From the NCBI GenBank assembly GCA_903900235.1, contig CAIUMH010000031.1:1-64000 (forward strand): a DNA stretch of 64,000 bases, read 5' to 3'. Position numbers and translations under genes: made by a program. The stretch is from an uncultured Actinomycetes bacterium (GTDB lineage: Bacteria; Actinomycetota; Acidimicrobiia; Acidimicrobiales; RAAP-2). Of the stretch, positions 39,929-43,874 are shown piece by piece. Within the stretch, counting starts at the first letter, position 1, and each line of letters opens with the position of its first letter. A model generated the notes under the pieces. That model had not been told where the DNA came from. It made no database searches and saw only the letters and a program-made list of their open reading frames with translations.

Positions 39929-42548
<2,620 letters not shown>

Positions 42549-42550
42549 GA

Positions 42551-43573
42551 TCAGACCCTTCCTGCGATTGCGTCGCCGATCTCGCCGGTCGACGCTTGCT
42601 CCGTGGTGCTCATTGCGTATTCAGTGACCGCCGCCGAGATGCGGCCGGCTGCCTCAGTCTCGCCGAGGAACTCGAGCATCAGTGCACCCGAGGAGATGGC
42701 GGCCAGAGGATTGGCCTTGGCCTGTCCGGCGATGTCGTGGGCCGCTCCGTGCACGGGCTCGAACAGCGACGGTCCGGTCCGAGAGGCGTTGAGGTTGGCC
42801 GAGGCAGCGAATCCGATGCCACCGGCCACCGCTCCGGCGAGGTCGGTGAGGATGTCCCCGAAGAGGTTGTCCGTCACAATGACGTCGTAGCGGCTGGGTT
42901 GCTCCACCATGTAGATGCACGCTGCGTCGATGTGGTTGTAGTCAACCGACACAGAGGGGAACTCTGTGGCCACGTCATTGACGGTCCGCTGCCACAGATC
43001 ACCCGAGAACGTGAGGACGTTGGTTTTGTGCACCAGTGTCAACTTCTTGGCTTCTCGTGAGTCGGCGAGATTGAAGGCGAATCGGACACAGCGCTCAACG
43101 CCGAAGCGGGTGTTCACCGAGCCCTGCGTGGCGATCTCGTGCGGCGTGCCGTGGCGCAGGAACCCGCCCTCGCCGGCATATGTGCCCTCGGTGTTCTCCC
43201 GGATCACCACGAAGTCGGCACCCTCGGCGATCGACCCAGGGACGCCGACGAAGGGGCGCAGGTTGATGAAGAGGTCGAGGCCGAATCGAGCCTTGAGCAG
43301 CAGCCCGCGCTCGAGAGTGCCCGGTGGGATCGAGGTGTCTCCGATCGCCGGTCCGACGGCCCCGAGCAGGATGGCATCAAAGCCGCGCAGCTCTTCGAGA
43401 GTCTCGTCGCTGAGCACCTCACCAGTCCGCTGGTAGCGCGAGGCGCCGAGGTCGAAGTCAGTGGTGGCCAAGTCGACGCCGGCCGCAGCGATCACCTTGA
43501 GGGCCTCCGAGGTCACCTCAGGGCCGATGCCGTCGCCACCAATCACTGCAATCCTGTGCTGCGTCATGTCCAC
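42551..43573 (-). CDS. leuB: 3-isopropylmalate dehydrogenase
   Basis: RIAVIGGDGIGPEVTSEALKVI, VIRENTEGTYAGEGG, VHKTNVLTFSGDLWQRT, VTDNLFGDILTDLAGAVAGGIGFAASANLN, FEPVHGAAHDIAGQAKANPLA. Confidence 0.94.
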   Translation of the reverse strand: MDMTQHRIAVIGGDGIGPEVTSEALKVIAAAGVDLATTDFDLGASRYQRTGEVLSDETLEELRGFDAILLGAVGPAIGDTSIPPGTLERGLLLKARFGLDLFINLRPFVGVPGSIAEGADFVVIRENTEGTYAGEGGFLRHGTPHEIATQGSVNTRFGVERCVRFAFNLADSREAKKLTLVHKTNVLTFSGDLWQRTVNDVATEFPSVSVDYNHIDAACIYMVEQPSRYDVIVTDNLFGDILTDLAGAVAGGIGFAASANLNASRTGPSLFEPVHGAAHDIAGQAKANPLAAISSGALMLEFLGETEAAGRISAAVTEYAMSTTEQASTGEIGDAIAGRV

Positions 43574-43666: not shown

Positions 43667-43691
43667 AAAAAACCGCCCACCAAGTGGACGG
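43667..43691 (-). terminator. Intrinsic terminator in the leuB 5' region (attenuator terminator candidate)
   Basis: Minus strand CCGTCCAC-TTG-GTGGGCGG-TTTTTTC: 8-bp stem with one U-G pair plus U6, about 95 nt before the leuB start. Confidence 0.75.
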
Positions 43692-43698
43692 TCAAGGC

Positions 43699-43723
43699 GG
43701 CGCGCTGGGTGACCCAACGCGCC
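43699..43723 (-). promoter_or_regulatory. Strong hairpin between the putative leader stop codon and the leuB attenuator terminator
   Basis: Minus strand GGCGCGTTGGGT-C-ACCCAGCGCGCC: near-perfect 12-nt arms. Confidence 0.65.
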
Positions 43724-43758
43724 TATCCAATAATCCCTACCCGGTTGCTATCTCGCAT
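43723..43758 (-). CDS. Candidate leader peptide MRDSNRVGIIG (Val/Ile codons GTA, ATT, ATT) for leuB-ilvE-cimA
   Basis: ATG CGA GAT AGC AAC CGG GTA GGG ATT ATT GGA TAG; 8 nt upstream is a -10-like GAGACT (43672+95.. i.e. 43767-43772) with -35 TTGACC (43790-43795), 17-bp spacer. Confidence 0.5.
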   Translation of the reverse strand: MRDSNRVGIIG

Positions 43759-43874
43759 CGAACTCAAGTCTCCCAAAGCCCTGCGGCTGGGTCAAGACGG
43801 GTCGCAAGGTGCAGAGCGACTGGTTGAGAGGCGGTACTCTTGGTCGTTCACCTTCTCGCCCCAAGGACCATGCT

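Follow-up and report, generated by a model that had tools for sequence, protein, structure and literature searches.

The leuB–ilvE–cimA operon in the window, that is, the whole 64,000-nucleotide stretch of DNA analysed here, is preceded by a real and conserved leader element that, as judged from sequence comparison, very probably is an attenuator responding to valine and isoleucine. The element consists of a promoter, a short leader open reading frame (ORF), a hairpin (H1) that begins in the stop codon of the ORF and an intrinsic terminator (T). The predicted element is far beyond chance, since many relatives share its promoter, its frame and codons, and both H1 and T. The full statement, namely a ribosome-mediated Val/Ile attenuator of leuB–ilvE–cimA that includes a switching step gated by H1, is considered reasonably probable as a whole; the gating step taken by itself, which is modelled from predicted folds, is a plausible proposal that falls somewhat short of probable. 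With this element, leuB–ilvE–cimA, and in one family cimA alone, would join the operons under amino-acid attenuation. The description may also aid annotation, as leader ORFs of 10–19 codons are easily overlooked.

The leader element in the window

The initial annotation had listed a promoter, a leader ORF, a hairpin and a terminator upstream of leuB, and all of these are present in the sequence (Table 1). The first hairpin does begin at the stop codon, its first pair being the G of TAG, but it has 11 base pairs and not the 12 that had been claimed. The leader ORF reads ATG CGA GAT AGC AAC CGG GTA GGG ATT ATT GGA TAG, and its ATG lies 8 nt from the −10 element. A sigma-70 scan gave no site at the leuB leader promoter because GAGACT matches too little of TATAAT. 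H1 is separated by 5 nt from T, which can also be written GACCGTCCAC-TTG-GTGGGCGG followed by T6; its stem spans 43693–43671 and the T6 run 43672–43667. The ATG of leuB, at 43567, is about 99 nt past the T-run, and greA is divergent relative to the leuB operon. The true start of cimA is probably further inside its ORF, the TIGR00977 match starting at residue 81.

Table 1. Features of the leuB leader, its operon and the sister leaders in the window.
Feature	Positions	Strand	Basis or remark
Leader element upstream of leuB–ilvE–cimA	43795–43667	−	Promoter, ORF, H1, terminator T
−35 element TTGACC	43790..43795	−	Sequence
−10 element GAGACT	43767..43772	−	Sequence; 17-nt spacer after −35
Leader ORF MRDSNRVGIIG*, 11 codons	43723..43758	−	Ile/Val codons confined to ORF frame
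Sensing codons: Val GTA 43740–43738, Ile ATT 43734–43732 and 43731–43729	43729..43740	−	Codon counts
Hairpin H1, 11 bp	43699..43723	−	Fold and covariation
Intrinsic terminator T, GACCGTCCAC-TTG-GTGGGCGGTT and T-run	43667..43693	−	Fold, terminator scan, locus-specific conserved motif
leuB, 3-isopropylmalate dehydrogenase, first operon gene	42551..43567	−	NF002898 489.8 bits, cut-off 393
ilvE, branched-chain aminotransferase	41622..42548	−	NF005146 and TIGR01122 above cut-off
cimA, citramalate synthase	39929..41740	−	TIGR00977 661.8 bits, cut-off 450
leuA leader MTTTNVLLLL* (GTG start)	48635–48545	−	TAG, H1, terminator AACCTCC..GGGAGGTTTTTT; conserved in relatives
ilvB leader MSSDLLRPALVVVVR* (GTG start)	58452–58351	−	Same layout; terminator GACCTCCC..GGGAGGTC

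The 94-nt segment has a folding energy of −43.1 kcal/mol, compared with −31.1 ± 3.4 kcal/mol for shuffled sequences (z −3.5; none of 200 as low). A terminator scan of 600 bases returned two terminator-like matches, T among them, against 0.4 expected. A T-box reading was dropped, since an Rfam search of the window at the gathering score returned no match, T-box included.

Conservation and sister leaders

A search for leuB in public genomes yielded 80 loci, nearly all from Acidimicrobiia, and the leader element stands ahead of leuB in 45 of them. At 43 of the 80 the leader carries a CCGTCCAC..GTGGGCGG-type terminator behind an ORF with Ile/Val codons, and L028 and L081 have the same layout with a different terminator; many freshwater Ilumatobacteraceae leuB loci are without the element. 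The layout was also present in 24 of 40 leuB upstream regions of the class that were sampled independently of the motif. A search of 148 genomes of the order with the terminator pattern gave 42 matches in 41 genomes, and the motif lay directly upstream of leuB at all 30 loci inspected. The stretch from the terminator to leuB ranges from 20 to 267 nt and is without conservation. Two covariance-model matches, L202 and L204, were set aside as false, there being no branched-chain amino acid (BCAA) gene nearby.

Several observations concern the range of the element. The cultured relative Acidithrix ferrooxidans has a leuB leader (L012). At L199 (genome G347), a leuB–ilvE locus from another class of the phylum, an ORF ending in QVVIIR* precedes H1 and a terminator that differs in sequence; this layout may predate the Acidimicrobiia. 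Records titled Burkholderiales or Bifidobacterium breve (L006, L052, L055, L064, L078 and L080) carry a leuB close to that of the window, L006 and L078 with leaders of the Acidimicrobiia type, and are probably mislabelled metagenome bins.

Statistics were computed on 70 leaders, 44 of them found by leuB homology together with a loose pattern for the terminator, the other 26 through the terminator pattern. Conservation of the terminator is overstated in this set because the terminator pattern served to find the leaders; the codons, the stop position and H1 played no part in finding the loci. The last six codons contain on average 3.39 Ile/Val codons in frame, compared with 0.20 and 0.01 in the other two frames, the stop having been picked among candidates of usual spacing for most Ile/Val codons. 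Such codons occur in frame in all 70 leaders (at least two of the last six), and the codon two before the stop is Ile or Val in 64. Conservation of the leader ORF and its Ile/Val codons, which the initial annotation had proposed as a check on Ile/Val sensing by a BCAA attenuator of leuB–ilvE–cimA, was thus borne out. Codon choice is also unusual: Val is encoded by GTA in 62 of 94 cases, Ile by ATT in 76 of 143 and the stop by TAG in 60 of 70, whereas the window genes, a rough reference only as the leader codons are drawn from many genomes, have GTA in 6 of 568 Val codons (1%), ATT in 34 of 376 Ile codons and TAG in 0 of 16 stops. GTA and ATT had rightly been called atypical. A single tRNA normally decodes both ATT and ATC; the rarest codon is retained where the isoacceptors differ, as for Val, and these two Ile codons are mixed in the leaders.

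The promoter recurs: of 69 leaders, 43 have TTGAC with NANANT 16–19 nt downstream, where shuffles predict 0.1. In 38 of these 43, 6–10 nt separate the −10 element from the first in-frame start, and transcription is therefore predicted to begin at the leader ATG or 1–3 nt before it, which would probably make the leader mRNA leaderless or nearly so.

The two hairpins differ in the way in which they are conserved. A covariance model was derived from the leaders, and its 89 matches were realigned; in this alignment, nine of the ten H1 pairs show changes on both sides (0 of 500 shuffles), and the whole structure has 156 cells with both-side changes compared with 37 in shuffles (0 of 500), counts that are favoured by an alignment fitted to the model. 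The hairpin covariation that had been suggested as a further check is thus present. T is nearly fixed: all 86 sequences agree at four of its ten pairs, and at three others changes are confined to one side. Its loops differ in length and sequence, and its arms are changed in L028, L081, L145, L161 and L165. In 63 of the 70 leuB leaders the first H1 pair falls 0–2 nt into the stop codon; in leuA leaders, picked without regard to H1, this offset is 0–3 in 22 of 22. The spacer from H1 to CCG is 4–6 nt in 57 of the 70, and the gap between H1 and T is 0–6 nt. Two further regularities were considered and dropped. A mismatch at T pair 4, which is U·G or purine–purine in most sequences, proved to be no rule, as it is Watson–Crick in L028, L081, L161 and L165, and an apparent trade-off of stem strength against T-run strength (r 0.54, Spearman p 0.06) was driven by one group of six and is not claimed.

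The same layout, with other terminators, is found ahead of leuA and ilvB in relatives and, in one family (that of G206), ahead of cimA alone. These four leader types amount to a natural experiment, with sensing codons that change according to what the controlled genes make. Counts in the last six codons were L87 V6 I1 for leuA leaders (n = 23) and L7 V98 I146 for leuB leaders (n = 72), both partly circular in that the former were selected for Leu codons and the latter partly for Ile/Val. They were L44 V76 I23 for ilvB leaders (n = 32) and L2 V2 I54 for cimA-alone leaders (n = 14), both selected for any of Leu, Val or Ile, and the contrast between cimA leaders with Ile only and ilvB leaders with all three is free of this circularity. 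In these sequence comparisons the identity of the sensing codons tracks the products of the controlled genes, which points to the ribosome as the sensor.

The window itself carries a leuA and an ilvB leader of the same layout (Table 1). In the ilvB leader, GTA GTA GTA GTG precede CGC TAG and H1 follows; its T-run is weak. The 5' arm of the leuA terminator contains CCTCCTG, a repeat of the Leu-codon sequence. A layout scan within the window found the leuA leader and missed those of leuB and ilvB, and is therefore no census. In the G206 family (f7; L193, L195, L197, L198, L201, L203 and L210–L232), leuB usually has no such leader. Here cimA carries a separate one, in which the sensing codons are all Ile and the terminator is mostly GCCGCCC..GGGCGGC; attenuator and specificity seem to have been split off as one.

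Ribosome position and the proposed switch

The effect of a ribosome on the leader was modelled by masking a footprint from −16 to +11 around the A site, the textbook values. Equilibrium folding with such masks left T formed in nearly all states and was discarded as a test because E. coli trp, thr and ilv gave the same result. It was replaced by masked-ribosome folding of transcripts ending before the 3' arm of T, with pairing of the T 5' arm to upstream RNA as the readout. In this test the thrL control gave 1.00 on Thr/Ile codons and 0.01 at the stop, and trpL 0.63 on sensing codons and 0.00 at the stop; ilvL was ambiguous. The leuB leaders behaved in the opposite way, with 0.10–0.14 while the ribosome is 15–12 nt short of the stop and 0.42 once it is there, and the leuA, ilvB and cimA leaders changed in the same direction as leuB. 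The probability of H1 itself was 0.97–0.98 with the ribosome 12–15 nt before the stop, 0.43 at stop−6 and 0.02 at the stop. A conserved antiterminator helix that excludes T and forms on stalling at the sensing codons was not found by this test, which trpL and thrL pass. In the predicted folds, considering only short base extensions of T, no nucleotides are common to H1 and T. In these models, ribosome-driven flipping of the leuB leader does not fit the textbook attenuation model.

In the switch proposed here, the signal sensed would be the charging state of the tRNAs for GTA and for ATT/ATC. When Val or Ile is scarce, the ribosome would stall upstream of H1; H1, folded right against T, would hinder T and so act as an antiterminator, and RNA polymerase would read into leuB. 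When both amino acids are plentiful, the ribosome would reach the stop codon in the base of H1 and melt H1, whereupon T would form freely and transcription would terminate. Both steps, the hindrance of T by folded H1 and the removal of H1 by a ribosome at the stop, are inferred from the fact that H1 abuts T. In the models this scheme gives the right sign, on in starvation and off in plenty. Counted against it are the lack of nucleotides shared by H1 and T in the predicted folds and the formation of T at equilibrium in almost every state, although the E. coli leaders do the same. The scheme also predicts, unlike classical attenuators, that a leader that is not translated gives readthrough. Pro is the last sense codon before the stop in 20 of the 70 leuB leaders; translation termination can be slower after a C-terminal Pro, and here this would lengthen the stay of the ribosome on H1.

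A classical attenuator, in which stalling on the Ile/Val codons frees the H1 3' arm to pair with part of T (its 5' arm, 2:3, or its 3' arm, 2:4) and so blocks termination, had been favoured by the initial annotation. The window taken alone lends this some credit, with a CCGCC after H1 that is able to pair with GGCGG and a T probability that goes down to 0.33 with a ribosome on the second Ile codon. However, CCGCC occurs in one of the 70 leaders and is missing even in the sister species L002, and the supposed covering of the H1 5' arm by a ribosome on the Ile codons is not supported, as a ribosome with GTA in its A site stops about 5 nt short of H1 and one on the first ATT only touches the edge. 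Furthermore, all 300 sets of permuted stems allow 2:3 pairing at least as strong as that of the real sequences, as if T were kept undisturbed when H1 is open, 2:4 pairing does not rise above chance (equalled or exceeded in 76 of 300 sets), and the response to ribosome position is opposite to that of thrL and trpL. A classical switch is considered unlikely. It is also improbable that a protein or other trans-acting factor acts on the sequence-conserved T hairpin and that the leader ORF is an added or secondary input. The fixed, locus-specific sequence of T beside a drifting, covarying H1 would suit such a factor, and a regulatory protein has been suggested for actinobacterial leuA (PMC1262725), but the loops of T vary, its arms are altered in five relatives, leaders of the same layout have other terminators, and codon identity follows the pathway.

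Translation attenuation, in which the leader would govern exposure of the leuB ribosome-binding site as in mycobacterial polycysteine leaders, has a precedent in mycobacterial cys operons, which are regulated by short leaderless ORFs whose sensing codons lie at the stop (Canestrari 2020, as cited in PMC9094748 and PMC13236596). It is nevertheless highly improbable here, given a terminator with a T-run between leader and gene and the variable, unconserved stretch that separates the terminator from leuB. Lastly, 11 codons are by themselves no evidence of a gene, and the terminator might have belonged to another transcript, as the initial annotation had cautioned. Frame-specific codon conservation, the promoter and covariation speak against a chance ORF, and the divergent greA and the T motif directly before leuB (30/30) against a foreign terminator; both readings are already refuted by these comparisons and are given practically no credence.

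The H1-gated switch leads to a broader and more tentative suggestion, that of an attenuator class without alternative base pairing, in which a hairpin with the stop codon in its base antiterminates by abutting T and is removed by the terminating ribosome. If true, this would imply class-wide use in Acidimicrobiia for leuA, ilvB, leuB and cimA, and it might explain actinobacterial leaders that have codons at the stop and no classical antiterminator.

Relation to known attenuators

No description of leader-peptide attenuation of leuB, or of attenuators in Acidimicrobiia, was found in the open-access literature, to which the search was confined and in which absence is no proof; this agrees with the expectation that the control of leuB–ilvE–cimA had not been described. 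Two features of ribosome-mediated transcription attenuation in the broad sense are present, a short leader ORF with regulatory codons for the pathway products and an intrinsic terminator between this ORF and leuB. The abutting hairpins with control codons just upstream correspond to the adjacent-hairpin type of C. glutamicum ilvBNC, with H1 as the putative antiterminator.

The leuB leaders share a leader ORF, cognate codons and a terminator with the E. coli trp, thr and ilvGMEDA attenuators. However, a ribosome at the stop codon blocks the antiterminator in E. coli, whereas in the leuB leaders the stop forms part of the H1 base and a conserved 2:3 helix was not seen. In the classical trp type, moreover, the first hairpin has a 5' arm that overlaps the sensing codons, with the stop beyond this hairpin, which is not so in the leuB leaders (offset 0–2 in 63/70).

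Actinobacterial leader peptides with runs of BCAA codons were described for leuA and ilvB only, in a set without leuB and without Acidimicrobiia; that study found no classical antiterminator and did not settle how these leaders regulate (Seliverstov 2005, PMC1262725). The reversed geometry reported here bears on this old puzzle. The LEU element is a pseudoknot in which Leu codons pair with the leuA Shine–Dalgarno sequence (PMC1262725); in contrast, the leuB leader ORF region shows no pairing to the T arms (mean z 0.25 and −0.08).

In M. tuberculosis, the ilvB1NC leader ORF contains LVVI with GUA as regulatory codon and a terminator before the structural genes, and replacement of these codons by alanine gave low, inhibitor-independent reporter expression (PMC13236596). 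The leuB leaders resemble it in the BCAA leader ORF, the GUA/GTA codon and the terminator before the genes, and differ in gene and leader sequence and from the mutually exclusive antiterminator modelled by its authors (PMC13236596). The Corynebacterium ilvBNC attenuator corresponds to the ilvB-II motif (PMC10272879). In C. glutamicum it is a three-hairpin 'fast attenuator' with the control codons CUU and GUA, for which adjacent antiterminator and terminator hairpins that compete at their bases were proposed from mutational analysis (PMC11857589). The leuB leaders have in common with it the BCAA leader ORF, the GUA control codon, the intrinsic terminator, the adjacent hairpins and the closeness of the control codons to the switching hairpin. 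They differ in gene, which is ilvB there, and in sequence, and the hairpins of Corynebacterium share a boundary trinucleotide, whereas no shared nucleotides were found in the leuB leaders. The closest known systems are the actinobacterial ilvB attenuators.
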